Positions 17,711 through 43,514 of a stretch of DNA of 43,573 nt are shown here, in pieces. Origin of the DNA: an uncultured Muribaculaceae bacterium (GTDB lineage Bacteria; Bacteroidota; Bacteroidia; Bacteroidales; Muribaculaceae). The notes beneath the pieces were generated by a model. It had not been told where the DNA came from, ran no database searches, and was given only the letters and a program-made list of their open reading frames with translations. The stretch spans positions 1 through 43,573 of the forward strand of contig CANNVE010000022.1 of NCBI GenBank assembly GCA_947525975.1, in the 5' to 3' direction. A program made the position numbers and the translations under genes. The first letter of the stretch is position 1. Each line of letters begins with the position of its first letter.

Positions 17711-17812
17711 AAAAAAGGGTAAGCTGACTACATCGCGCCGCTCAACCCCCTACCCTTGCTTCTTACGGGACCTGGGGGAATTTGGGGGGAGCTGGCCGTG
17801 TAGGACTTACCC
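17711..17812 (-). ncRNA. ffs: Signal recognition particle RNA (small bacterial type)
   Basis: On the minus strand a ~96-nt rod opens with GGGTAAG (from 17812), closes with CTTACCC (to 17717), and is followed by seven Ts. Inner helices pair CTACA with TGTAG and GCTCCCCC with GGGGGTTGAGC. The tip reads CCCCCAGG, ten bases, then AGCAAGGGTA: the CAGG...AGCA internal loop that binds Ffh. A well-spaced promoter puts the transcription start at the first G. The apical segment is TCCCGTAAGA, so the tip has two pairs and a six-base loop rather than a standard closed GNRA tetraloop. Identified by structure and motif only. Confidence 0.82.
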
Positions 17813-17817
17813 GACTG

Positions 17818-17848
17818 CAAATTTACGACATTTTTCCGAAACAACAAA
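17818..17848 (-). promoter_or_regulatory. Promoter of the SRP RNA gene
   Basis: The minus strand has TTTG (17848-17845), a 19-base spacer, then TAAATTTG (17825-17818), a full match to the Bacteroidota consensus. The first G of the RNA hairpin is 6 bases downstream. The remaining bases 17849-18041 hold no gene or signal that I can support. Confidence 0.85.
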
Positions 17849-30110: not shown

Positions 30111-30245
30111 GTGGAGGTGCGTTTCTCCGAAACGCACGGGCCAACCCGAGGCCAAATAACACGGATTATCACGGACAGACACGGATTTCACGGATTATTT
30201 TTTAGTGTATGTTTGCCCGTGCGTCTCGGAGAGACGCACCTCCAC
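30111..30245. repeat. Paired REP-like hairpins, left of the fimbrial operon
   Basis: Two hairpin units face each other. Unit 1 has arms GTGCGTTT (30117-30124) and AAACGCAC (30130-30137) around CTCCG. Unit 2 has arms GTGCGTCT (30219-30226) and AGACGCAC (30232-30239) around CGGAG. Each is flanked outward by the same GTGGAG/CTCCAC sequence, so the pair also forms one long inverted repeat. Partial copies of the flank (gtggaggtgcg) occur at 30078. Confidence 0.8.
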
Positions 30246-30302
30246 CTCCGGGGCGAAATGAAAAAAAAATCCGTGTCAATCCGTGTAATCCGTGTTCTTG
30301 GG
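30157..30302. repeat. Inverted ATCCGTGT-repeat blocks
   Basis: Bases 30261-30302 read AAAAAAAAATCCGTGT followed by CAATCCGTGT, AATCCGTGT and TCTTGGG. Bases 30157-30206 carry the reverse complement type (CACGGATTATCACGGACAGA and onward), so the blocks form an inverted repeat around the second REP-like hairpin. A third block lies at 30573-30622. Confidence 0.75.
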
Positions 30303-30318
30303 CGTGGGGCGGGGTAGG

Positions 30319-30535
30319 GGCATCCGTAGGATGGCGATTTATAGTATCCGGGTATGCCGAAGCGCAGCGCAGGCATGCCCGGCTGTGCAAGTATTACGCT
30401 CGGCATTCGTCAGAAAGCCGAACGGAACACTTTCGGCTTTCTGACCGAATGCCCCCTACTATGGACGACTACCCCGCATGACTACGCTTCGCTACGTCAT
30501 ACGGGGTTACTAAAAATCGGCCTCCTTCGGATGCC
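30319..30535 (+). repeat. 217-bp structured repeat element, left copy
   Basis: The element begins GGCATCCGTAGGATGGCGATT and ends with a related inverted sequence (CTCCTTCGGATGCC). Inside are several hairpins: one near each end formed by CCCGGGTATG-type sequences, and a long central one with arms CAGAAAGCCGAA and TTTCGGCTTTCTG. A clearly related copy lies in opposite orientation at 43301-43514. No reading frame in it looks coding. It could be a non-autonomous mobile repeat or a REP-type cluster. Confidence 0.78.
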
Positions 30536-30572
30536 CGCCTGGCGAAGCGCCGCCTTCATGGGCCGTCATGTG

Positions 30573-30622
30573 AAAAAAATCCGTGTCAATCCGTGTGGAT
30601 CTGTGTAATCCGTGTTCTTGGG
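30573..30622. repeat. ATCCGTGT-repeat block, third copy
   Basis: GAAAAAAATCCGTGTCAATC is followed by CGTGTGGATCTGTGTAATCC and GTGTTCTTGGG. It repeats the block at 30261-30302 in the same direction, so the 217-bp element lies between two direct copies. Confidence 0.75.
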
Positions 30623-30715
30623 CTTTCGGGCGATTTTAAAATCGCCCTTCCATGGGGCGGATGGCGAAAATACGCTAAAATAAAATCTTGCAACGCGCAG
30701 AAAACCAACAAATTA

Positions 30716-30725
30716 CCCCCCCCCC
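30716..30725. repeat. C10 homopolymer upstream of the fimbrial promoter
   Basis: Ten consecutive C bases end 56 bp before the -33 box of the fimbrial promoter and 236 bp before its first start codon. It is the longest homopolymer of G or C noticed in the window. Such tracts can slip in length during replication. Confidence 0.9.
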
Positions 30726-30781
30726 ATTTTGCTAAAAGATGTTAATTTCGGGGTTTTCCCTGAACATTTTTCAGGTGGAAA

Positions 30782-30813
30782 TTTGGTCAGGTCTGTTATA
30801 ATTCGTAACTTTA
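30782..30813 (+). promoter_or_regulatory. Probable promoter of the fimbrial operon
   Basis: TTTG (30782-30785), a 20-base spacer and TAACTTTA (30806-30813) give seven of eight matches to the -7 consensus. The leader to the first ATG would be about 140 nt and includes a small hairpin GCGCC-TTA-GGGCGC around 30839. Confidence 0.6.
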
Positions 30814-30961
30814 CATTCAAGATATTCTCCAACAAACTGCGCCTTAGGGCGCTTTGTCGTCATCGCTGGCTATCGGTTTCCATCCCCTCGTGGCGGCATA
30901 GAGATATCCACTGACCTATATACTAACACACCTGACACTAACTCTTTCGCATACTTTTCTT

Positions 30962-31558
30962 ATGTCGAAATCCTTTTTAAGACTCTTCCTCGTAGCCTTG
31001 ATTTCCTTGTGCGCCACGCAGTTTTCTTCGGCTCAGAAATTCGCCATCAAGAATGACGTCCTTGACGACGCGCTGTTGAATCCCAACATCGCCGGCGAGG
31101 TGAAGCTCGCTCCGAAATGGTCATTTGAATTGCTCGGCCAGCTCAATGCCTGGGAGCTTGACCACGGCAACAAGATGTGGAAGCACTGGCTCGTGATGCC
31201 AGAGGGCCGCTATTGGCTCTGCGACGTGTGGGACGGCCACTTCTTCGGCGCCCATGTCTTTGGGGGCCAATACAACATCGGCGGCATCAAGGGCCTCTCC
31301 AACTTCCTCGGCACCGACTTCAGCAAGCTCGCCGACTACCGCTATCAGGGCTGGTACGTGGGCGCCGGCATAGCCTACGGCTATGACTGGATCCTCAACC
31401 GCCACTGGAACATCGAGGCCGAGATCGGCATCGGCTGGGCCTACACCCGCTGGGACCAGTTCCGCTGCGTCGGATGCGGCAAGAAGATCGCCACCGACAA
31501 ACCCCACCACTATTTCGGCCCCACAAAGGCCGCGATCAACGTGGTCTACATCTTCTGA
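30962..31558 (+). CDS. DUF3575 fimbria-associated protein
   Basis: 198 residues. A signal peptide (RLFLVALISLCATQFSSA) is followed by QKFAIKNDVLDDALLNPNIA, an N-terminus typical of DUF3575. The rest is a predicted beta-barrel-like sequence rich in aromatic residues (GWYVGAGIAYGYDWILNRHW, WNIEAEIGIGWAYTRWDQF), ending in a strand INVVYIF as in outer-membrane proteins. DUF3575 genes commonly open Bacteroidales fimbrial loci. The molecular job is not established; an outer-membrane assembly or anchoring aid is a reasonable guess. First gene of the operon. Confidence 0.85.
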   Translation: MSKSFLRLFLVALISLCATQFSSAQKFAIKNDVLDDALLNPNIAGEVKLAPKWSFELLGQLNAWELDHGNKMWKHWLVMPEGRYWLCDVWDGHFFGAHVFGGQYNIGGIKGLSNFLGTDFSKLADYRYQGWYVGAGIAYGYDWILNRHWNIEAEIGIGWAYTRWDQFRCVGCGKKIATDKPHHYFGPTKAAINVVYIF

Positions 31559-31675
31559 TACTGAGGAGACGCAAATACACCGCACAAATCAGCTAACCTA
31601 CAATCGGAATCAACGCATTTCTGGCATGAAGGCGAGCCTCGTGGCGAGCCGAAACATCAAATCCAATCACCGTAT

Positions 31676-33130
31676 ATGAAATCACCCATCATACTTTCGG
31701 CCTTGGCTCTGGCTGGGGCTTTGCAGGCCTCGGCTCTCAACGAGGTGAAGAGCCTGCAGCAGTGGGATGCCGACGGAGCCCGCATGCAGCGAGAGGGAGA
31801 CAACCTCTTCAGCGTAGGCTTTGACCTCGACCTCGCAGGCCTCGACGTCCCGAGCGAGGAGGCCATCCTGCTCACCCCCGTGCTCCAAAACGGCCTCGAC
31901 TCGCTCGAGCTCCCGGCTGTGGGCATCTACGGGCGCAACCGTTATTATCACTATGAGCGCCGCGGCACGGGCATGATCTCGGGCGACGACGAGACGGTGT
32001 GGAAAAACAAGGAGAAGCCCGGCCACATCGACTACTCGCAGGTGATTCCCTACCGCCCGTGGTTCGACGGCGTGAAGCTCAAGGTCAAGGGGCAGTGCTA
32101 CGGATGCTGCTTCCAGCTCCTGGGCCAGAACGAAAAGCCCCTGGGCGTATTCATGGAGCCAAACTTCCCCATCAGGCCCAAATACGTGTTTGAGCCCGGC
32201 AACGCCGAGGTCACGGGCGAGCTCAGCGGCGAGGCCCGCGTGCAGTTCGTGGTCGACCGCTGGGAGCTCCACCAGGATAAATTCGGCAACGGCCCCGAGC
32301 TCGCCAAGATCACTCACTCTATCGACACCGTGAAGAACGACCCCGACCTCACCGTCACCGAGGTCTGGCTCAAGGGCTTCGCTTCGCCCGAGGCCACCTG
32401 GCAGCACAATACCATGCTGGCCAAGAACCGCGTGAAGGCCGTGCGCGAGTTCGTGGAGGCGCGCTATGACTTCGACCCCTCGGTCATCGTCACCGAGTTC
32501 CAGCCCGAGGACTGGGCCGGCCTGCGCAAGTGGGTGGCCGAGAGCAACATCGAAAACCGCGACGGCATCCTCGCCATCATCGACGAGCCGGTCACCAACC
32601 CCGACAAGGATTGGGACGCCAAGGATCGCAAGATCGGGCAGAAATACCCCAAGCAGCGCAAATTCCTGCTCAACACCGTGTATCCGCCCCTGCGCCACAC
32701 CGAATACAAGATCAAATACAAGGTGCGCCGATTCCTCGACCCCGAGGAGATACGCCGCGTCATGAAGACCGAGCCTGCAAAGCTCACCCTCAACGACTTC
32801 AACCTCGCTGCCGAGGGCTATGAGCCCGGCAGCCCCGAATTCAATGAGGTCTACGACATAATGGTGCGCATACACCCCGACAGCGAGATTGCCAACCTCA
32901 ACGCCGCCAACGCGGCCCTGCAGAGCGGCAACCTCCCCGCAGCCGAGAAATACCTGGCCAAGGCCGGATCATCGCCCGAGGCTGAATACAGCCGCGGCCT
33001 GCTCAAGCTGATGCAGGAGGACTACGCCGGAGCGAAGCCCGCCATCGAGGCCGCCGCGGCCAATGGCATCGAGGGCGCAGCCGAGCTGCTCGACAGCCTC
33101 AACCGCTACCTCGACTTCCTCGCCCGCTGA
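31676..33130 (+). CDS. DUF3868/OmpA-like fimbrial accessory protein
   Basis: 484 residues. A signal peptide ends around LQASA. The N-terminal ~210 residues resemble DUF3868 of fimbrial loci, with a Cys pair in KVKGQCYGCCFQLLG. An OmpA-like peptidoglycan-binding segment follows (VTEVWLKGFASPEATWQHN, ~227-245, then MLAKNRVKAVREFVEARYDF). The C-terminal ~110 residues are helical and TPR-like (NLNAANAALQSGNLPAAEKY). The protein may tie the fimbrial machinery to the cell wall. It lies 117 bp after the DUF3575 gene and 77 bp before the major subunit gene. DUF3868 is a family-level call from motif memory. Confidence 0.78.
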   Translation: MKSPIILSALALAGALQASALNEVKSLQQWDADGARMQREGDNLFSVGFDLDLAGLDVPSEEAILLTPVLQNGLDSLELPAVGIYGRNRYYHYERRGTGMISGDDETVWKNKEKPGHIDYSQVIPYRPWFDGVKLKVKGQCYGCCFQLLGQNEKPLGVFMEPNFPIRPKYVFEPGNAEVTGELSGEARVQFVVDRWELHQDKFGNGPELAKITHSIDTVKNDPDLTVTEVWLKGFASPEATWQHNTMLAKNRVKAVREFVEARYDFDPSVIVTEFQPEDWAGLRKWVAESNIENRDGILAIIDEPVTNPDKDWDAKDRKIGQKYPKQRKFLLNTVYPPLRHTEYKIKYKVRRFLDPEEIRRVMKTEPAKLTLNDFNLAAEGYEPGSPEFNEVYDIMVRIHPDSEIANLNAANAALQSGNLPAAEKYLAKAGSSPEAEYSRGLLKLMQEDYAGAKPAIEAAAANGIEGAAELLDSLNRYLDFLAR

Positions 33131-33207
33131 CGCGCACCCCGACACTGAAACTACAAAACAACAGACCAAATAAATAGATCAATTAACAAATACCTAATCA
33201 GAATTTT

Positions 33208-35043
33208 ATGAAGATCAACAAATTCTTTATGGGTCTCGGCGCTGTGGCAGCCCTGTCAATGGCAGCCTGCTCTAACGACGAGCCCGCAAACAATGGCAAC
33301 GGCGGCGAGCCCGTCGTAGGCCAGGACCAGGCCTTCATAGCCGTAAGCATCTCTGAGCAGACCGACGGCAAGTCACGCGCCGCAGGCGACATCAACCAGG
33401 AAGGCACCGGCGAGAACGCAGGCAACTGGTTCGAGGATGGCTTCAAGCTTGGTGAGTCAAATGTGAAGACTTGCGACTTCTACTTCTACGATGAAAATGG
33501 CAAGTACGTCATGACATCAAACACCCTTTGGGAAAACGGTAATCAGGGCATGCCCAACGTCGAGATCAAGGGTAAGTCAGTGGTTGTGCTTGACCAGGTT
33601 AAGAAGAAAGGCTATCCCAAATACATGGTTGCCATCCTCAACAAGCCCGCCGGCTTCCAGGTACCCCTCACCCTCGAGCAGATGAACACCCAGCTCGTAG
33701 GCGCAGCTGAGACCACCGACGGCGCTGTGAAGTATATAAATGACAGCAAGGATTACTTCACCATGACCACCACCAGCTGGGCTGACCAGACCATGCGTGA
33801 AGACAAGAACGAGTCTCTTCCCTACTATTTCGTTAACGAACTAATCGAGAGCGACTTCTACACCTCTGCCGAGGCTGCAAAACAAGAAGGCAAGGCTGTG
33901 AAGGTGTACGTGGAGCGTCTTGCCGCAAAGGCTGCCGTTAAGATTGGCATGAATCCCGTCAAAGACCTTGCGAACACTTACCCTATCGAGATTTCTGTAG
34001 CCGGCGCAGGCAACGATGACGAAGGCGACTACATCTCTGACTACGAGCTCTATGTAGAGCTGTCAGGATGGCATTTCAACGCCACCGCCAAGGATTCTTA
34101 CTACATGAAGAACATCGATGAGACTTGGACTAACGACGCCCTTGGCTTCATGTGGAACAGCAAGGACTATTTCCGCAGCTACTGGGGCAAGTCATACACC
34201 TACGGCGTAGGCACACAGGCTGACTACAACTACTTCTCTTACAATGATCTCACCGAGAAGTTCTGGGAGGCAGACGAGGTAGGCAAGCAGCACGCCGCTT
34301 ACACCACTGAGAACACTCACCCCGCTAACTTCCTCAACGTATATGCCAACTACAACAAGGTAACCTCTGTCCTGCTCAAGGCCCGCGTCTATGATCCCAA
34401 GGCTGCTGAAGGCGCGAACTCTGACTTCGTGATGTACAACGGCCTGCTCTTCAAGGGCGACCGCTTCATGCAGTACGCAATGTCAGTGGCTGAGGCTAAC
34501 ATCTGGGTTAAGGTTGATGAGACAAAATACGCTGAGGTATCTACCGGCTATTCTCTCGTTAACGACGGCACAGGCAACAAGGTTTATGCTCAGTTCGCAT
34601 CCGATGCAAGCACCACCTACTATAAGAAGACCGTCGATGCTGAAGGTAAGACCGTATATGTTGCATACACTGATACCGAGCTCACAACTGCAGTCACTGC
34701 CCTCAACACCGAGCTGAAGAAGACTGTAGGCGAAGGCTTCAAGGGCGGCATGATGTACTACAACGTGCCCATCCGTCACCTCCGTCCTCTCAAAGACTCA
34801 AACGAGGACGGCATCCTTGACCGCACTTTCGACCTGAGAAACCTCCTCGAAGGCGACTACGGCGTAGTCCGCAACCACTACTACCGCATCAACATCAACA
34901 GCCTCGCCAAGCTTGGCACAGGCGTTTGGAATCCCGATGAGGACATCATTCCCGAGAATCCTCCGAAGGACGAAGAATACTACGTAGGCGCTGAAATCAA
35001 CGTGCTCTCTTGGCGCATCGTTGACCAGGACATCGATCTCTGA
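33208..35043 (+). CDS. Mfa1-type fimbrial major subunit (lipoprotein precursor)
   Basis: 611 residues. Lipoprotein signal MKINKFFMGLGAVAALSMAAC (lipid Cys21). The first beta strand (DQAFIAVSISEQ) is followed by a single Arg site, GKSRAAGD with Arg57, where type V pilins are cut before polymerising. The body has Mfa1-like segments such as YVERLAAKAAVKIGMNP, MMYYNVPIRHLRP and GDYGVVRNHYYRININSLAK, and the C-terminal strand SWRIVDQDIDL. It is the likely bulk subunit of the shaft. Codon use (many gct, tct, ctt, gtt) differs from the flanking genes, which favour C/G endings, fitting high expression or allele exchange. Confidence 0.88.
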   Translation: MKINKFFMGLGAVAALSMAACSNDEPANNGNGGEPVVGQDQAFIAVSISEQTDGKSRAAGDINQEGTGENAGNWFEDGFKLGESNVKTCDFYFYDENGKYVMTSNTLWENGNQGMPNVEIKGKSVVVLDQVKKKGYPKYMVAILNKPAGFQVPLTLEQMNTQLVGAAETTDGAVKYINDSKDYFTMTTTSWADQTMREDKNESLPYYFVNELIESDFYTSAEAAKQEGKAVKVYVERLAAKAAVKIGMNPVKDLANTYPIEISVAGAGNDDEGDYISDYELYVELSGWHFNATAKDSYYMKNIDETWTNDALGFMWNSKDYFRSYWGKSYTYGVGTQADYNYFSYNDLTEKFWEADEVGKQHAAYTTENTHPANFLNVYANYNKVTSVLLKARVYDPKAAEGANSDFVMYNGLLFKGDRFMQYAMSVAEANIWVKVDETKYAEVSTGYSLVNDGTGNKVYAQFASDASTTYYKKTVDAEGKTVYVAYTDTELTTAVTALNTELKKTVGEGFKGGMMYYNVPIRHLRPLKDSNEDGILDRTFDLRNLLEGDYGVVRNHYYRININSLAKLGTGVWNPDEDIIPENPPKDEEYYVGAEINVLSWRIVDQDIDL

Positions 35044-35078
35044 TCAGCACCCGCACCCTAACAAACTATTGACCAATC

Positions 35079-35112
35079 ATCGCCGCGCTTTCCGCGCGGA
35101 AAGCGCGGCGAT
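35079..35112. promoter_or_regulatory. Perfect 34-base palindrome after the major subunit gene
   Basis: Arms of 17 bases (ATCGCCGCGCTTTCCGC and its complement) meet without a spacer, 36 bp past the stop codon. In RNA it is a very stable hairpin. No T-run follows, so mRNA end protection or partial termination are both possible. Confidence 0.8.
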
Positions 35113-35132
35113 TCCCCCTACAAAACCATCAC

Positions 35133-35180
35133 AGCAAGCGGGCAAGGGCCCGCGCTCGAAGTCCGCTTGCTTTCCTTTTT
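35133..35180 (+). terminator. Intrinsic terminator between major and anchor subunit genes
   Basis: A 9-bp stem, AGCAAGCGG (35133-35141) with CCGCTTGCT (35163-35171), is followed by TTTCCTTTTT. No promoter was found in 35181-35347, so the downstream genes probably depend on read-through. The rest of this gap shows no gene. Confidence 0.7.
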
Positions 35181-35347
35181 CAAATCCGGCCAAGCCTCCC
35201 GACCCATCGGCCAGGCGCGTCAGGTTTTGATGACTACCTCCCCTGAAGGCAGAGCCTTCCACCTAAACTGACCACAACCGGCCCCCGCAGCGGGGCGACC
35301 ATATACATCAACCCAAATATCAACCTATACACATCACTCTTCACGCG

Positions 35348-36481
35348 ATGATATTCTTCTCTAAACTTAAACGATACGCATTGGCAGTCGCTGCGGGCCT
35401 CGGGCTTTCGGCTTCTTTCACATCCTGCGACAGCATGATATACAACTACGAGGAGGATTGCGTCTACTACGTGCGTTTTGAATACGACTACAACCTCAAG
35501 TGGGCCAACGCCTTTCCGTCGGAGGTGAAGTCGGTGACTCTATACATAATCGATGAGAACGACAACGTGGTGCTCACGCAGAGCGAGAACACCGGCGTGC
35601 TCGCCGACCGCGACTACATGATGGTGATCGACGACCCCAGGATAGTGCCTGGCCGCTACCGCCTGCTCGCATGGGCCGGCGACGAGGAGATCGGCTCATA
35701 CCCTGCCTCTGAAGGCACAAAGAAGGCCGACCACCAGCGCCGCCTCAACCGCGACGTCAACACCGATGGCGAGCACCACCACCGCGGACACATGGACCGC
35801 CTCTACCACGGCTCGCTCCCCTCTACCCTGAACACTCCCCTGGCCAAGAACGCCGCCAACGTCAAGGACGGATGGTGCGTATTCAGCGAGGGATACCGCG
35901 ACGTCTTCACCATCCCCATGATGAAAGACACCAACACCATCCGCATCCACCTGCAGCAGATGGGCGGAAAGCCGATGCCCGTGGAGAAGTTTGACTTCGT
36001 CATCACCGACCGCAACGGCCACATGGACAGCGACAACAATCTCTGCGACGACACCCGCATCACCTATCATCCCTGGGCGCTCAAGAGCGGCACCACCGAC
36101 CTCACCCTCCAAGGCATACCAGTGACCTATGGCACCGCCATGGCCGAGTTCACCACAAGCCGCCTGATGAAGGAAAACGCCGAAAACAAGAACGACAAGG
36201 AGAAAGAGGCACGCCTCATCATCCGCAACCACGAAGGCGAGGAGATCGTCAACATCCCCGTGCTCCAGGCCCTGCTGCTGGCCAAGAGCGAATACTACGA
36301 AGACGCCATCAGCAAGGGCGACGTGCCTGCAGGGCAGCACACGCCCCTGAGCGACCAGGAATTCTTCGACCGCCAGGACACCTACAACCTCACATTCTTC
36401 CTCGACGAGCACACACGCTGGACATCGGCCGAAATATACATCGAGTCATGGAGAGTGGTGTGGCAAGATGTCGACCTTTGA
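35348..36481 (+). CDS. FimB/Mfa2-type fimbrial anchor subunit (lipoprotein)
   Basis: 377 residues. Lipoprotein signal ending SFTSC (Cys27), then the Mfa2/FimB hallmark IYNYEEDCVYYVRFEYDYNL and ANAFPSEVKSVTLYIIDEND. No SR cleavage site follows the lipid Cys, consistent with an anchor that stays membrane-bound and ends shaft growth. A His/Arg-rich insert (around HHHRGHMDRLYHG) lies near residue 140. The C-terminus SWRVVWQDVDL copies the last strand of the major subunit. It is separated from the major subunit gene by two hairpins and followed by the Ig-like subunit gene after 35 bp. Confidence 0.9.
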   Translation: MIFFSKLKRYALAVAAGLGLSASFTSCDSMIYNYEEDCVYYVRFEYDYNLKWANAFPSEVKSVTLYIIDENDNVVLTQSENTGVLADRDYMMVIDDPRIVPGRYRLLAWAGDEEIGSYPASEGTKKADHQRRLNRDVNTDGEHHHRGHMDRLYHGSLPSTLNTPLAKNAANVKDGWCVFSEGYRDVFTIPMMKDTNTIRIHLQQMGGKPMPVEKFDFVITDRNGHMDSDNNLCDDTRITYHPWALKSGTTDLTLQGIPVTYGTAMAEFTTSRLMKENAENKNDKEKEARLIIRNHEGEEIVNIPVLQALLLAKSEYYEDAISKGDVPAGQHTPLSDQEFFDRQDTYNLTFFLDEHTRWTSAEIYIESWRVVWQDVDL

Positions 36482-36516
36482 TTTGATTATTGAAACCTAA
36501 CAGCTGAATTATTAAA

Positions 36517-39500
36517 ATGAAGATAAATCACTGCATATCCGTAGTATGGGCGACCATCTGCCTGATGGCCGCCGCGCTCACGGCGTGCTCCGACCACGAC
36601 ATCAACTCTGGCGGCGCCTCCGGCGGGGATGGTAGTGACAAGCTCCAGCTTGGACTCAACGTGGTCATCCCCTCAATGCCGGGCAGCCGCGCCAGTTACG
36701 AGCAAGGAGTCGGAGACTATGAAAACACCGTCGACCTCGCCAAGAAGGACTACCGCATACTCCTGTTCACTCACGACACCAACACGCTGCTGGCCAATTT
36801 CGATCCCGAAAAAATCGTGATGATCGAAAACCGCCCCAGCTCATCCAACCCCACCTACCGCTCATATCGCCTCTACGCCGAGGTCGACAAGGATATAAAG
36901 TCATACGCCGACCTCAAGCTCGTGGTGCTCGCCAACTGGGGCGACTATCCCGACCTGACTATCGGCCTGACCACCATCGACGACCTCGCCGGATACGCCG
37001 CCGCCACCGGAGCCATATCCTCCGGCGCAGCCACCACATTCGAGGGCGCGTCAAAGCTCGTCGGCTCCGACGGAAAGCACATACCCATGTTTGGCGTGAA
37101 GGACTGCGCAGGCATCAAATGGGCCAACTTTGACCTCGCCTGGCTCGGCGACCTCTGGCTGCTGCGCGCAGTGGCCAAGATCGAGGTGCGCGCAGCCGAG
37201 GGCGGAGCCGAGATAGAGAGCGTGGAGCTCTCGCGCTACAACAAGCTCGGCACCTGCGCCCCCATGCGCGTATACCGCGAGGCCGACTATGTGATGGGCG
37301 AGGACCAGTACAAGGCCTTCGACTATCTCACCCTTCCCGGCGGAAAGAACGACCCCGCCGAAGCATCCTACGCCGTGCAGCCCGATGCCGACGGCCTCTT
37401 CACCGTCTACGTGCCCGAATACCAGATACTCGCCGACCCATCGAAGCCCAAGGGCGACAAGGTCAGCGACTACGCACGCCTATACGTGAAATTCAAGGGC
37501 AACACCAAGATCTACCCCGTTGACTTCAAATACTACACCGCCGACGCTGCCGCCGACAACGACGCAGCCATTGGCGACTTCTTCGACATCAAGCGCAACT
37601 TCTACTACCGCTACCGCCTGCGCATGAGCGAGGGCGACCCCGAGATCCGCGTCGACGTGCTTCCTTATCGCGCCGTGGAGCTCAAGCCCGATTTCGGCCT
37701 GCCGCTCAAAGATCTCACCCTCAACCGATATGTGGTGCACCTCTTCACCGACCTGAGCGGCGCCCCCACGACGTCGTCAGAGACCGTAATCGCCTATGAC
37801 GAGCACGGAAAGCAGATCCCCGCGAGCGAGATCGAGTGGACACTCGACAGCGATGTGGCCAACCACGTCTGCACCGTGGAGGAGAACGCCGCCGGCGAGT
37901 GCGTGATCAAGCCCATAGCCGGAAAGCGAGGCCGCGACGTGCTCACAGCCACCATCAGGGACCACAACGGCATGGAGGTGACGGCAGAGTGCGTGGTGGA
38001 GGTCTCGGAGCGTCTGCTCGGCCTCGACAAGACATTCCTCGGCCTCACGCCGAGAGACAACGGCCTCACCACATCGACCGGATCGTTCATAGCCGACATC
38101 ATAGCCGAGACCGACGACCGGGGCACGCTCTCATGGGAGCTCCTCAACGAGGATGACCTCACCCCCAGCAATCTCGACGTGGAGGTGATCGTAGCCGTAA
38201 ACGGCCGCCCCGTGGACAACGGTTCGGTCATCGGCTCTAACGACGCTGAAGTGCGCGTAAACGCCGGCCTCGAGGTAGGCACAGCCCACCTATGGCTGTA
38301 CTATGACGGCCCCGACCCCGACAACCCATCGGCCCGCAAGAGATATACCACCTATTGCGAGATATTGGTGCAGAACATCGCCATCGTGTGCGAGCCAAAG
38401 GCCGCATCGGTGATCGTGGGCCAGTCAATGACGCTCAACACCTCGGTGCTGCCCAAATTCTCCAACTTTATCCCCACGGTCAAGTACCACTCCTTGGACC
38501 CCTCGGTGGCCACCGTTGACAACAACGGCCTCGTCACCGGTATCACCCCCGGCTCTGTGAGGGTGGAGGCATACAATGACACCGACTTCCCGATGCGCAT
38601 AGCCGACACGGTCTTTGTCAGCGTGAAGCCCAACAACCTGGTGCTCATGCGCCAAGACGGTGTCACTGTGGCTGACTATATAGAGCTCCTCAATGGTGAG
38701 AAAGCCTCTATCAGGGCCATGAGCAACGGGCGCGACATCAGCAAGAGCGTGAAGTGGAGCATCGAAGGCGAGGTGTTCTGCACCGTGAAGAATGGCGTAG
38801 TCACCGGTAGCACATCAGCCACCAAGGGCACATCGACCATTGTTGCCACATACGACTTCAAGAACGCTGACGGCACTACCACCACCCTCACTGCCCGATG
38901 CATAGTGGTCGTGGCCAAGCAGCGCATACTCTACATCGACACCCATCCGCATGCCGTGTCGCCCCAAGCCGAGGTGCCGTTGAGGGCATACATCTTCCCT
39001 GACTCCATACCCTGGGACAAGCGCACCTACACTGTGAATTGGAGCTCTAACAACACCAAGGTCATAGCATTCGACAATGCCGAAAGCCCGGCCAATGCAG
39101 TGGCAAAATCGCCCGGCAAGGCTACCCTTACCGCTTCCGTCAAGTACGGATCAACGACCCACAAAGCCACCACGGAAGTGGAAGTACTCGGCGCTGCATT
39201 TGGCGAAGAAGGTAGGAAAGGCCTTTTCGTCTATGACGCATCGGGAACCGAAATGGCAGAAATCACCACCCCTGACGGCAGCTATACCCACGAGCAGATA
39301 ACCGCCGGCGCCATGAGCTCAATCAAGATGCCCAGAGATGCTTCATGGGTAGCCAAAATAGGCGTTGGCTCGGCCGATCTGCAGATCGCCGATGTGGATT
39401 GGCAGGTATACCGCAGATATGAATGGTATGATCCACGCATAAATCTTACTGTCAGCAAAGACAAGAAATCATGTACAATCAAAAATATAGCGACAGACGA

Positions 39501-39591
39501 TATACCTACGCGCTATAATGAAGTGATCGTGACAATAAAATATAGCAATGGGCAGACCGAGACCCGCCGATTCGCCGTATTCTCGTATTAA
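36517..39591 (+). CDS. Large fimbrillin-like lipoprotein with Ig-like domains
   Basis: 1024 residues. Lipoprotein signal ending LTAC (Cys24), a first strand KLQLGLNVVIPSMP, and an Arg site GSRASYEQ (Arg58) as in the pilin. The N-terminal ~390 residues are fimbrillin-like (YRILLFTHDTNTLLANF, LWLLRAVAKIEVRAAEG). Ig-like modules follow: about 403-505, a BIG2-type module about 630-705 (YHSLDPSVATVDNNGLVTGI), one near 720-800 and one about 806-892 (VNWSSNNTKVIAF). It is probably an accessory or tip-proximal subunit. The last ~900 bases are richer in A/T than the first 2 kb. Confidence 0.8.
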   Translation: MKINHCISVVWATICLMAAALTACSDHDINSGGASGGDGSDKLQLGLNVVIPSMPGSRASYEQGVGDYENTVDLAKKDYRILLFTHDTNTLLANFDPEKIVMIENRPSSSNPTYRSYRLYAEVDKDIKSYADLKLVVLANWGDYPDLTIGLTTIDDLAGYAAATGAISSGAATTFEGASKLVGSDGKHIPMFGVKDCAGIKWANFDLAWLGDLWLLRAVAKIEVRAAEGGAEIESVELSRYNKLGTCAPMRVYREADYVMGEDQYKAFDYLTLPGGKNDPAEASYAVQPDADGLFTVYVPEYQILADPSKPKGDKVSDYARLYVKFKGNTKIYPVDFKYYTADAAADNDAAIGDFFDIKRNFYYRYRLRMSEGDPEIRVDVLPYRAVELKPDFGLPLKDLTLNRYVVHLFTDLSGAPTTSSETVIAYDEHGKQIPASEIEWTLDSDVANHVCTVEENAAGECVIKPIAGKRGRDVLTATIRDHNGMEVTAECVVEVSERLLGLDKTFLGLTPRDNGLTTSTGSFIADIIAETDDRGTLSWELLNEDDLTPSNLDVEVIVAVNGRPVDNGSVIGSNDAEVRVNAGLEVGTAHLWLYYDGPDPDNPSARKRYTTYCEILVQNIAIVCEPKAASVIVGQSMTLNTSVLPKFSNFIPTVKYHSLDPSVATVDNNGLVTGITPGSVRVEAYNDTDFPMRIADTVFVSVKPNNLVLMRQDGVTVADYIELLNGEKASIRAMSNGRDISKSVKWSIEGEVFCTVKNGVVTGSTSATKGTSTIVATYDFKNADGTTTTLTARCIVVVAKQRILYIDTHPHAVSPQAEVPLRAYIFPDSIPWDKRTYTVNWSSNNTKVIAFDNAESPANAVAKSPGKATLTASVKYGSTTHKATTEVEVLGAAFGEEGRKGLFVYDASGTEMAEITTPDGSYTHEQITAGAMSSIKMPRDASWVAKIGVGSADLQIADVDWQVYRRYEWYDPRINLTVSKDKKSCTIKNIATDDIPTRYNEVIVTIKYSNGQTETRRFAVFSY

Positions 39592-39605
39592 ACATATCTA
39601 AAACA

Positions 39606-42600
39606 GTGAAACACTATATAAAGTACATATATCGATTGGTGGTGGCAGCGGTCTGCTGCTTTGCGGTGGCCTCATGCTACGATGACACTTTCGACAGTTT
39701 CCGTCCCGAAGGCGACGGAAACGGCCTCGATGTGTCGTTCACCGTGAATATGCCGCCTCTGGCGTCGACCCAGCTCAATTCGCGCGGATCGGCGGGCGAC
39801 ATCATCAAGGAGATCAACACCCTCCATGTCTACGTATACAACGAAGACGGCTCGAAGCTGATACTCCACTGCGGCAAAGAAGGCCTCGAAGACTTCAAAT
39901 ATGACAAGAACGGCAACGACAAGCGCCCCGATTATCCCTACGCAGACTCCAAGGAATACGAGACCACTGCCGGCGAGCAGACCACGCCGAGAGCCACTTT
40001 CAAGCTCAAGGCATCGCCATTCGTGGCAGGCGAGACCTATAGAATCTACGTAACGGCCAATGTCGACGTGCCCGAGAGCGAGTATGAGACTGAGGACAAG
40101 CTCAAGGCCTACACCGTGAACTGGAACGAGAAGGAGACCGGAGCCAACGCGCAGATGCTGGGCATGTTCGCCGAATCTGACGAGAAGGTCGAAGGCTCGG
40201 CTGTGACTTTCTCGAGCGCCCGCGCCTACTACCTCCACGCCTGGCTTGTGCGCTGCGCGTCGAAGGTGACTGTGGCCTACAATACCGAGCAGCTCAACGA
40301 CAATGTGTGGATTTATCTCCACAACGTCAGCATACGCAACATACCCCGCCAGTGCCACCTCGGCGACGGAAACACCGCCACGCAGGACTACGGCGTGATC
40401 GAGCGCGGTGAGCAGATACTCTACGCGCCCGAAGGCTCAAACTACGACAACGCCGACGCCGACTTCTCAAACTGGCCCGTGCTCTCGCGCGGCACCGGCG
40501 TCTACGGCAGCGAGCACCTGGAGACCGACGAGGCTCTATTCTTCTACGAAAACCTCCAGGGCGAAGGCAAGGACAAGAGCCAGGTAGACAGCGACAAGCC
40601 CACTCCCGACGGCGAGGTGTCATGGCCCGACGGCGTTAACCCCGGCGGCGAAGGATGGCGCGACGAAATGCCCTACGGCACATACATCGAGGTGGAGGCT
40701 TACTATCGCTCCACGGCCAAAGGCAACGAAGGCCGCGGAAAGATAATATACCGGTTCATGCTCGGCATGGATACATTCAAGGACTACAACGCCTACCGCA
40801 ACCATCACTTCAAGCTAACGCTCAATTTCCGCGGAAACGCCAACGACGTTGACTGGCACATCGACTACAAGCCCAATACCGACAATCCCATCTATGTGCC
40901 GCATCCCTTCTATATCTCATATCTCTACGGCGAGAACGTGGAGATACCCATCACCGTCGACGGCTCCCTCACAAAGGGCACAAAGGTGATAGCCGAGATA
41001 GTGGAGAACAACTGGAAGCCAAAGGATGCTTCCCCATCAGTTTACTGGACCGGTAAGGTGCAGAGCGGACAGAACGTGAATTACGATGGACCATGGCACG
41101 GATTCCTGTCGCTGCGACCCACCAACAGCAACGAGAACTACGTCTCCGGCGGCGACAACATCACCAACGCCGACGCCCTGGGCCGCGAGAAGGAGGCTTA
41201 CAAAGGCCAGATCTCCGGAAACAGCAAAGCCTATCTGATGTCATATTGGTATGGGGGGCTCGAGAATATGTCTACGATGACCAACCCCTCTACGGCCAAT
41301 TTCTTCACGAGCGCCCAGATTGACGAGAACGAGGGCATGCACGTGCCCATGCAGGGATACCGCGAGTATGAGACGTCAAACCGCAACGGTCGCACACAGG
41401 ACTTCACCAAGGACAATCATGACACCTACGAGATAGTGGAGGCCACCAACGGCGGCAAGACAAAGACCCACATATATCTGCCCCTCTACACCCGATCGCT
41501 CTTCATGGTGAAGACTCTCGGATATTCGGGCGCAAACCCGTTCTTCCAGTATCAGCGCAAAGCCGTGGTGAAGATCACGTGCTGGGTAGACAAGACTGAC
41601 GAGAACAATGTGACCCGCTCGGTGAAATACACCAAGCTCTGCGACGTGATCCAGGTGCGACGCATCATCAACCCCTCGGGCATATATCGCGAGCACGGAA
41701 ACAACAAGTCATTCACCGTCAACCTCTGCTTCCGCACCGCCGAAAAGGCGACTTCGTTCATGCCCTTCGCTTCGGAGGGCAAGTGGAGCGCCGAGATCGA
41801 ATCAGGCGACCCGGGATTCATCACCCTCAACGGCATGCAGCGCGTGCAGGGCCGCACGGGCGAATACGTGAAATTCCAGGTGCACTTCATCCCCACGATG
41901 TCCACGAAAAACCGCTACGCGGTGATCCTCGTGAAGTATCATGACTATACGTGCAAGCACCGCATCATGGTGCGCCAGGGATATGACCCCGACTATATCC
42001 TCGATGCGGCCGATGCGGTGAAATGGCACTGCTTCAACATGCGCGGCGGCGAAAGGGAGGCGGAGTCTCCGCTGGAGCCGGGTTCGCAGTTCCGATTCGG
42101 CAATCTCGAATACGCCATTGATGCCCGCGCCAACACCACCGAACAGTTCGGAATGGCTCCTAACGGGCGTAAATTCACGGTCTTGGGCAAAGACGGCAAG
42201 GTGGCAGGCGAAGTGGAGTGGTATGTCAACAACAAGGATCTGCCCGGCCTCGGCTCGGGCAAGCCTAACCTCGCATTCGAGACTGTGTCGGATTTCGATG
42301 ACGAGAACATCAACTTCCATCAGTATATCACGCTCAGGGATTCCACCGGCAAGGTGCTGAACCAGGGCAAGAAGACGCGCCTGCCCAAATACCATGAGTG
42401 GCAGCGAGTGCGCGACAACGCCCACCTGCTCTATACATTCGGCGTGTGCTACGATGACAACTCCACATCCACATCGATGACTGCCGACAAGGCGTTCAAC
42501 TACCTCTATTCGAGCGATGACAAGTCGGGAAGCGGCATGCGTGGAGTGTTCATCTTCAACAAGCATGACGCCCGAAATTTCTTCCTGCCCATCGGAGCCT

Positions 42601-42971
42601 CGGGCTATGGCCGCCGCAAGAGCGGCACCAATGAGGCGCCGGGCACGCTGCGCTACGCCAACCGATCGGTGTATATGCCTTCGGGCGCGGTGGAGAAGAT
42701 GCCGATGTTCTGGAACATCAAGGACAACCTCGGAGCCATCTACTGGGGATACCCGGATGCCACTTCCCGTAAGGATATTTGGAACAACAACGATGTGCCA
42801 TACTTCAACGCATGGGATATCAACGTGTCAACATACGACTTCAACCACTTCAGCTCCAACGCATATTCGGGCCAAAATAATGACTCCCGAAATGCCGGAA
42901 TACAGAATGAGGAAGATGGTAAATACTACTTCTCTGACTCTGCCTTCCTGAGGCTCGTAGACGAAGACTAA
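39606..42971 (+). CDS. Very large fimbrial lipoprotein, putative tip adhesin
   Basis: 1121 residues, starting at GTG 14 bp after the previous stop. This start is preferred because it begins a complete lipoprotein signal, MKHYIKYIYRLVVAAVCCFA then VASC (Cys24). An Arg site follows the first strand (LNSRGSAGD, Arg60). The N-terminal part is fimbrillin-like and the whole resembles large DUF4906-type proteins of fimbrial loci. The C-terminal ~300 residues (NMRGGEREAESPLEPGSQFR onward, with RGVFIFNKHDARNFFLPIGA and FLRLVDED at the end) resemble Fibrobacter-major-paralogue (FISUMP) domains. Last gene of the operon; a tip-located binding role is inferred. Confidence 0.75.
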   Translation: MKHYIKYIYRLVVAAVCCFAVASCYDDTFDSFRPEGDGNGLDVSFTVNMPPLASTQLNSRGSAGDIIKEINTLHVYVYNEDGSKLILHCGKEGLEDFKYDKNGNDKRPDYPYADSKEYETTAGEQTTPRATFKLKASPFVAGETYRIYVTANVDVPESEYETEDKLKAYTVNWNEKETGANAQMLGMFAESDEKVEGSAVTFSSARAYYLHAWLVRCASKVTVAYNTEQLNDNVWIYLHNVSIRNIPRQCHLGDGNTATQDYGVIERGEQILYAPEGSNYDNADADFSNWPVLSRGTGVYGSEHLETDEALFFYENLQGEGKDKSQVDSDKPTPDGEVSWPDGVNPGGEGWRDEMPYGTYIEVEAYYRSTAKGNEGRGKIIYRFMLGMDTFKDYNAYRNHHFKLTLNFRGNANDVDWHIDYKPNTDNPIYVPHPFYISYLYGENVEIPITVDGSLTKGTKVIAEIVENNWKPKDASPSVYWTGKVQSGQNVNYDGPWHGFLSLRPTNSNENYVSGGDNITNADALGREKEAYKGQISGNSKAYLMSYWYGGLENMSTMTNPSTANFFTSAQIDENEGMHVPMQGYREYETSNRNGRTQDFTKDNHDTYEIVEATNGGKTKTHIYLPLYTRSLFMVKTLGYSGANPFFQYQRKAVVKITCWVDKTDENNVTRSVKYTKLCDVIQVRRIINPSGIYREHGNNKSFTVNLCFRTAEKATSFMPFASEGKWSAEIESGDPGFITLNGMQRVQGRTGEYVKFQVHFIPTMSTKNRYAVILVKYHDYTCKHRIMVRQGYDPDYILDAADAVKWHCFNMRGGEREAESPLEPGSQFRFGNLEYAIDARANTTEQFGMAPNGRKFTVLGKDGKVAGEVEWYVNNKDLPGLGSGKPNLAFETVSDFDDENINFHQYITLRDSTGKVLNQGKKTRLPKYHEWQRVRDNAHLLYTFGVCYDDNSTSTSMTADKAFNYLYSSDDKSGSGMRGVFIFNKHDARNFFLPIGASGYGRRKSGTNEAPGTLRYANRSVYMPSGAVEKMPMFWNIKDNLGAIYWGYPDATSRKDIWNNNDVPYFNAWDINVSTYDFNHFSSNAYSGQNNDSRNAGIQNEEDGKYYFSDSAFLRLVDED

Positions 42972-42978
42972 CCCCAAA

Positions 42979-43007
42979 GCGCGGGCCGGGCACCCCCCGG
43001 CCCGCGC
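42979..43007 (+). terminator. GC-rich hairpin ending the fimbrial operon
   Basis: A 12-bp perfect stem, GCGCGGGCCGGG with CCCGGCCCGCGC, has the loop CACCC and starts 7 bp after the last stop codon. It lacks a T-run. Confidence 0.75.
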
Positions 43008-43050
43008 CGCATATAGGCGGCGCCTCTCCCGGTGGAGGTGCACCCCTTCC

Positions 43051-43150
43051 GGTGGAGGTGCGTCTCTCCGAGACGCACGTGTCCGCCCCCATCCACCCCA
43101 TGCCATCCGTGTCCCCCTCTGCCCATGCGCCTCGGAGAGGCGCCCCTCCA
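43051..43150. repeat. Paired REP-like hairpins, right of the fimbrial operon
   Basis: Unit 1 has arms GTGCGTCT (43058-43065) and AGACGCAC (43071-43078) around CTCCG. Unit 2 has arms GCGCCT (43127-43132) and AGGCGC (43138-43143) around CGGAG. They face each other with GGTGGAG and CTCCACC on the outside, as in the left pair. A partial copy (ggtggaggtgcacccc) lies at 43031. Confidence 0.8.
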
Positions 43151-43311
43151 CCACCGCGCGATGGCCGCGGCAGGTGGCATCCGTAGGCTGCGACGGTCAC
43201 AGCGGCGTGGCATCCGGAGGCTCCACCACCACTGCGCGCATGGCTGCGGCAGGGGCATCCGGAGGCTCCACCACTACCGCGCGCATGGCTGCGGCAGGTA
43301 GCATCCGGAGG
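43146..43311. repeat. Degenerate ~45-bp tandem repeat
   Basis: Three copies start at 43146, 43221 and 43266. Each runs from CTCCACCAC through GCGCATGGCTGCGGCAGG to GCATCCGGAGG. The last two are contiguous; the first is separated by a 33-base stretch that itself ends in GGCATCCGGAGG. The unit end matches the terminus of the adjacent structured element. Confidence 0.8.
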
Positions 43312-43514
43312 ATGCCGAATTTTAGTAACCCCGTATGACGCAGCGCAGCGAAGTCATGCGGGGTATATCCCGGAAGAGAAGAGGCATTCGAAGAAAGCCG
43401 AAAGAGCCAAATCGGCTTCCTGCCGGATGCCGAGCGCATTTGCGCCCCAGCCGGGCATGCCTTCGCTACGCTCCGTCATACCCGGATACTATAAATCGGC
43501 ATCCTCCGGATGCC
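43301..43514 (-). repeat. ~214-bp structured repeat element, right copy
   Basis: Read on the minus strand, it matches the 30319-30535 element along its full length, including ATTTATAGTATCCGGGTATG, GGCATGCCCGGCTG, TTTCGGCTTTCT and CATACGGGGTTACTAAAA. The ends are near-perfect inverted repeats of GCATCCGGAGGATGCCGA. 43515-43573 shows no gene. Confidence 0.8.

Follow-up and report, generated by a model that had tools for sequence, protein, structure and literature searches.

A hairpin-rich, probably once-mobile DNA element on both sides of a Muribaculaceae fimbrial operon

The fimbrial locus and its two element copies

The window, the whole stretch of DNA that we analysed, is one entire contig (C22, 43,573 bp) of a Muribaculaceae assembly of 56 contigs and 2.90 Mb that is rated 99.9% complete. 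It carries a fimbrial operon with genes for DUF3575 and DUF3868 proteins, an Mfa1-family fimbrillin, an Mfa2 anchor, a Big_2 protein and a FimA-like protein; no recombinase was found among the six operon-region proteins scanned. On each side of the operon lies one copy of a ~215-bp element, the two copies in opposite orientation (Table 1). The right copy is 59 bp from the contig end, so the sequence past it is not visible.

The copies align end to end with 80.3% identity over 218 columns (E = 4e-50), and the longest exact run common to both is 22 bp. A previous sequence-only reading had described such a pair in opposite orientation around a surface-structure operon; both points are borne out, the operon being of Mfa1/FimA type. 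Each copy is 70–73% identical to its own reverse complement, and thus resembles one large palindrome. The internal hairpins given in that reading were recovered by folding as single-stranded DNA, with z scores against shuffles of −9.6 (left copy) and −11.7 (right copy) and none of 200 shuffles equal to either. The left copy folds into a cloverleaf, in which a closing stem from both ends holds the centre hairpin with a stem hairpin on each side of it; this is also the consensus fold of the eight full copies in the genome. The single best fold of the right copy instead pairs its two stem hairpins with each other. The element ends are themselves palindromes. The terminal repeat previously reported, GCATCCGGAGGATGC, is exact in the right copy, but the left copy has the changed form GCATCCGTAGGATGG. 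As had also been stated, there is no convincing coding frame; one 90-aa ORF (30209–30481) extends into the left copy. Neither copy matched Rfam at the gathering threshold, and the left copy had no BLAST match among phage and plasmid records.

Table 1. Coordinates of the fimbrial operon and of the two element copies in the window
Feature	Coordinates	Strand	Evidence
Left copy, full-length element (part order: end palindrome, stem hairpin b, centre hairpin, stem hairpin a, end palindrome)	30319..30536	+	BLAST, half-unit model, fold
Left copy, half-unit	30319–30453	−	covariance model
Left copy, half-unit	30402–30535	+	covariance model
GTAT foot, before stem hairpin b, left copy	30344..30347	+	sequence
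Stem hairpin b, left copy (CCGGGTATGCC ... GGCATGCCCGG)	30348..30382	+	sequence, consensus fold
Centre hairpin, left copy, common to both half-units (in relatives, its two sides enclose a transposase gene)	30402..30453	+	sequence, fold
Stem hairpin a, left copy (CCCCGCATGAC ... GTCATACGGGG)	30472..30506	+	sequence, consensus fold
GTAA foot of stem hairpin a, left copy	30507..30510	−	sequence
Right end palindrome, left copy	30519..30535	+	sequence
Fimbrial operon between the copies	30962..42971	+	protein family searches
Right copy, full-length element, opposite orientation	43301..43514	−	BLAST, half-unit model, fold
Right copy, half-unit	43300–43431	−	covariance model
Right copy, half-unit	43383–43514	+	covariance model
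Stem hairpin a, right copy	43329..43363	+	sequence, consensus fold
Centre hairpin, right copy	43383..43431	+	sequence, consensus fold
Stem hairpin b, right copy	43451..43485	+	sequence, consensus fold

Other repeats were noted in the same intergenic regions. A second one, AATCCGTGT(N)AATCCGTG, flanks the left copy on either side (30160–30198, 30268–30295 and 30578–30615); it has four matches in the window, where none is expected by chance, and is also found near several other element copies. A 45-bp tandem repeat of 2.4 copies (43202–43311) extends into the right copy, and its units contain GGCATCCGGAGG, which resembles the element end. The copy on contig C10 likewise adjoins a tandem array, with units containing GGCATCCG; such arrays are perhaps a preferred target of the element. 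Elsewhere in the window, a Bacteroidales small SRP RNA (17713–17819, minus strand) scored above the Rfam threshold and is ordinary.

Dispersal in the source genome

BLAST of the source genome gave 34 matches, many of them one place matched on both strands, which reduce to 17 clear places and a further two that are short. With a covariance model of the half-unit (R1), 134 positions long and derived from 23 half-units, the count rose to 22 distinct places (54 matches at E ≤ 0.1). Six of the 17 BLAST copies lie within 460 bp of a contig end; since repeats break assemblies, the true copy number may be higher. Eight copies are full-length (one is cut by a contig end), each composed of two inverted half-units, and share 78.8–91.0% pairwise identity; the rest are half-units or fragments. 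In a crude ORF pick, three of the 17 copies overlap an ORF of 119–329 aa and the other 14 are clear of every ORF picked. Among the 11 copies with both neighbours called, the neighbours were co-directional for eight, convergent for two and divergent for one. They include genes that we take, from their ORF sequences, to encode an aspartyl-tRNA synthetase, a succinate dehydrogenase subunit and a SusD-like protein. The fallback offered in the sequence-only reading, a genome-wide repeat family that collects in gaps, describes this distribution well.

We looked for traces of insertion. No target-site duplication of at least 4 bp, a feature that the earlier reading had proposed to check, was present in the 10 copies examined; two copies had a 3-bp match. 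Y1 transposases are not expected to produce target duplications. A clean empty site was sought in G036, the closest of the relatives identified through DNA matches to the operon region, and element-free intervals were found there with no readable joint. At the C1 copy, which lies between tRNA-Met and presumably the ribosomal protein L17 gene, the matching G036 interval lacks the element and is too diverged for the joint to be read. This absence fits gain in the source lineage, but also loss in that of G036. The comparison at the C19 copy gave no answer because the G036 gene on its left matches another contig. We noted that in the same gene interval as the C1 copy the tRNA-Met has the opposite orientation in G036 (L044 6521–6593; L215 3111–3251).

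A pair of copies around an operon need not be meaningful. With uniform placement, the probability that some pair falls within 13 kb is 0.23 for eight copies, 0.72 for 17 and 0.89 for 22, so that the bracket needs no special explanation. Homologues of four operon genes, the first four, occur in G036 (DUF3868 at 80.6%, DUF3575 at 78% and Mfa2 at 76% identity, with the fimbrillin matching at its two ends only), and R1 at E ≤ 0.01 found no element match anywhere in that genome. These results leave unsupported the proposal that the inverted copies permit inversion or exchange of the cassette or are remnants of its acquisition. Recombination between them to invert or exchange the whole fimbrial cassette is suggested by inverted copies of 80% identity on both sides of a surface operon, and we regard it as highly improbable: there are about 20 further copies, most of those examined lying in gaps beside unrelated genes, a chance pairing is likely, no exact run between the two copies exceeds 22 bp, and the operon homologues occur in G036 without the element. 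The position of the copies around the operon looks accidental, and the operon a bystander.

The G036 comparison also revealed a phage-type integrase (L203, on G036 contig C20, 4824–6288), which there follows the large membrane-protein gene and the tRNA-Gly that in the window precede the left copy. The G036 operon begins near the end of another contig. The integrase beside the tRNA-Gly suggests that this tRNA is an integration site; an element integrated at tRNA-Gly would explain the split in G036, whose two contigs do not join.

A conserved layout across the genus

BLAST over 61 genomes matched two only, the source genome and G017 (two 40-bp matches), which first suggested a one-species repeat; the covariance model overturned this. 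At E ≤ 0.01, R1 found the family in 15 of 49 genus genomes (source included), extending to relatives the copy count that the earlier reading had called for. The number of matches ranged between species from none to 67, with weak matches lost to the stricter filters of this search. Exact pattern scans of genome contigs and of viral contigs had given 0 matches each, the pattern being too species-specific, as judged from the later model search.

Full elements from G017 (10), G069 (7) and G004 (8) have a common layout with species-specific sequence. In an alignment of 76 half-units from the source genome and five others, 89.6% of cells pair, and 31 of 40 pairs have changes on both sides (shuffles: 20.4). 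The covariation score was 0.321, against 0.128 ± 0.005 when shuffled and at most 0.099 when slid, values to be read with the fact that the alignment was fitted to the structure and hence leans towards it. For the source genome alone, the score was 0.115 against 0.052 shuffled (none of 500 shuffles as high), and neither pairs changed on both sides (6 against 6.5 shuffled) nor further pair types (16 against 14.6) stood out. Judged from the aligned half-units, species differ in sequence and keep the layout through compensatory change. Such change could come from palindrome-correcting mutation of the DNA as well as from selection.

Two smaller features recur. One stem position is unpaired in 48 of 75 half-units of the alignment, and the stem mismatch is retained in 20 of the 23 half-units of the source genome. 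The foot is GTAA in 45 of the 76 half-units, GTAG in 12 and neither in 19.

A clade of Y1 transposases between half-units

Genes for Y1_Tnp (PF01797) were found in 33 of the 49 genomes at E ≤ 1e-3. When R1 was run on the first 21 Y1 loci, the element lay beside 7 of the 20 genes of other species and not beside the source genome's own. Six of these seven genes form one branch of the tree (support 98/98), with the seventh, L078, outside. A clade profile built from the six (A3) scored nine genes in seven genomes above 230 bits, the next at 142. All seven of these genomes carry the element (Fisher p 7.5e-5). The profile found no clade gene in eight element-bearing genomes, including the source genome, where the best match was 78 bits.

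On 30 Y1 loci, R1 matched both sides of all nine clade genes and of none of the 21 others, two of which (L127 and L131) had a match on one side only; for any match, clade against other Y1 genes, the Fisher p was 3.8e-6. Both p values overstate the association, since the choice of six of the nine genes had rested on their elements. We therefore treated as an independent test the three clade genes that had not defined the clade, together with 11 further public loci. The element was on both sides in 13 of these 14 (3/3 in the genus and 10/11 public), the 11 public loci coming from fewer genomes, two of which give two genes each. The public loci came from a scan of GTDB r220 with the clade profile, which gave 47 loci; 41 were searched with R1, and the six left out (L142–L145, L156 and L158) are genes already counted. 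R1 found no element beside the clade gene L153, nor beside L161, a more distant Bacteroidales gene. At 26 loci in records titled as other phyla there was a weak R1 match in two and both-side flanking in none.

The flanking sequences are mostly mutually inverted: at 16 of 19 flanked loci, those on the two sides of the gene are complementary beyond 200 shuffles (exceptions L113, L115 and L160). In G026 (L114) the two sides of the centre palindrome form these complementary arms, with 21 of 21 bases pairing, which places the gene where the centre loop would be. Several clade loci carry extra elements beside the gene, and in G017 (L117) the gene lies between two full elements, not half-units. Ends shared with a transposase-bearing unit, as a MITE derived from an IS200-like unit would have, are seen in relatives, at all nine clade genes of the genus and at 10 of the 11 public ones; the source genome has no clade gene.

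Class of the transposase

The motif Y-x3-Q-x2-HH is present at 20 of the 21 translated Y1 loci, including the six clade proteins translated. In the portions of PMC6006769 used here, it is the signature of TnpA-Y1 subclass 1.2, which is described as generally without terminal secondary structures and with no REPs listed. For two clade proteins, scores of 72.4 and 67.6 bits exceed the cut-off of 55 set for the NCBIfam IS200/IS605 model, and scores of 27.4 and 28.7 bits fall short of the cut-off of 80 for the REP-associated model NF047646. The WQ motif occurs in 4 of 20 aligned Y1 proteins and in none of the element-flanked clade, an absence that speaks against a full match of the clade with subclass 1.2.

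Flanking repeats extend beyond the clade. There is a repeat on both sides at 11 of the 13 non-clade Y1 loci compared (all except L070 and L082), as there is at both clade loci of the same comparison. The only Y1_Tnp gene of the source genome above the Pfam cut-off (on contig C23, near the contig end; L031 1492–1947) encodes a protein that scores 51.8 bits, just below the IS200/IS605 cut-off of 55. It lies between copies of a different repeat, found at ten other places, which folds as a cloverleaf (z −14.2). We considered this gene as the driver of the family and rejected it, since it belongs to another branch and adjoins another repeat.

Origin of the element

The element is dispersed in the source genome, has a conserved layout, and in relatives encloses transposase genes between inverted half-units. 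We infer that this hairpin-rich DNA is probably mobile or once was. Our favoured explanation, which we think likely, is a non-autonomous element of REPIN/MITE-like kind that depends on a class-1 Y1 transposase, its bracketing of the operon being coincidental. The ~215-bp element consists of two inverted half-units, each with an end palindrome, a GTA-type foot and a mismatched stem hairpin, and sharing the centre hairpin. A Y1 transposase of the clade may recognise its single-stranded fold and may cut near the foot, and gene-less copies would then spread as single-stranded DNA into intergenic gaps. In the source genome the family is probably inactive and its copies fossils, given that no clade transposase was found there and that the full copies are 9–21% diverged. 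The clade gene may also have been lost from the assembly, since a repeat-flanked gene tends to fall into a gap. Several observations weigh against a transposase-served, REPIN/MITE-like element: no movement and no clean empty site were seen, the eight element-bearing genomes without a clade transposase include the source genome, L153 is a clade gene with no adjoining element, and only 12 of 76 half-units have the canonical GTAG foot.

Alternatively, the element could derive by internal deletion from an ordinary insertion sequence of the IS200-like type, with half-unit, tnpA and half-unit making up the autonomous, wholly mobile unit. The gene between inverted half-units at 16 of 19 loci and the two clade proteins that pass the IS200/IS605 cut-off are what such a unit would give. 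However, there are only one or two genes per genome (nine in seven) against up to 67 element matches, and the extra elements beside several genes, like the gene between two full elements at L117, are REPtron-like. We consider this derivation unlikely, though by no means far-fetched, and its difference from the REPIN/MITE-like explanation is partly verbal. A host function selected at the RNA level, as a structured RNA or a bidirectional terminator, would account for the strong folds, the compensatory change and the 8 of 11 copies between co-directional genes. It would not account for the commonness of half-units and fragments, for match numbers that vary from none to 67 between species or for the tie to a transposase clade, and there was no Rfam match; we judge it improbable as the origin of the element, and some copies may have a secondary RNA role.

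If a transposase-served element is correct, the apparent fimbrial switch is explained away and a poorly understood, low-copy transposase group is tied to a DNA substrate. More broadly, and with a little less than even confidence, we suggest a further REP-like system, in which subclass 1.2-like Y1 transposases co-evolve with gene-holding cloverleaf elements that spread gene-less copies. Such a REP-like class-1 system would represent an extant intermediate linking IS200/IS605 insertion sequences with RAYT/REPIN systems, and the C23 gene with its differently worded cloverleaf repeat would be another case of it. Since one layout has a different sequence in each species, matched transposase/element pairs make HUH recognition directly testable. 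They could reveal how complex shapes of single-stranded DNA are read by an HUH transposase, and by what route insertion sequences may become REP-type systems.

Comparison with known systems

At the level of titles and abstracts, the literature searched describes no such elements in Muribaculaceae and no hairpin repeats beside subclass 1.2 genes. One close parallel is with REPINs and BIMEs, which RAYT (TnpA-REP) transposases mobilise (see also PMC3116915). In the sections consulted, these are likewise dispersed extragenic palindromes in inverted pairs, have a short foot beside an imperfect stem and surround a Y1 transposase gene that is mostly present as a single copy (PMC3733652, PMC8266576, PMC6006769). 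The retained stem mismatch is reminiscent of E. coli REPs, whose stem mismatches are required according to PMC8266576. The differences, relative to the same partial accounts, are in size, foot and enzyme: the element is ~215–250 bp, with three hairpins plus end palindromes, whereas REP units are 20–40 bp; its foot is mostly GTAA, unlike the GTAG of REPs and outside the GT[AG]G pattern; and its transposase has a class-1 tyrosine motif and fails the REP-associated model, whereas RAYTs are class-2 TnpA-REP.

Within the part of PMC6006769 drawn on, subclass 1.2 shares with the clade the motif Y-x3-Q-x2-HH, low copy number, occurrence in Bacteroidetes and a length of ~140–155 aa; the clade has DH[IV]H. 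That account gives subclass 1.2 no REP and generally no terminal structures, whereas the clade is flanked by large hairpin elements, and it gives a WQ motif that the clade proteins lack. TnpA-REP subclass 2.6 is likewise from Bacteroidetes, with unusual structures beside the gene and copies elsewhere, as outlined there (PMC6006769). Its motif is YIH[QN]NP, in contrast to Y-x3-Q-x2-HH here, and its repeats, compared with ours by description alone, may resemble the element.

TIRtrons, as far as PMC3733652 was drawn on, are likewise Y1 genes between long inverted repeats that recur elsewhere in the genome. They occur in other bacteria, and their transposases are mainly of subclass 2.1, with other motifs, in the excerpts of PMC6006769 used. 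The same part of PMC3733652 offers a parallel to the composite build of the element, in the Pseudomonas GTAG units fused to unrelated stem-loops, which likewise join a REP-like unit with extra hairpins.
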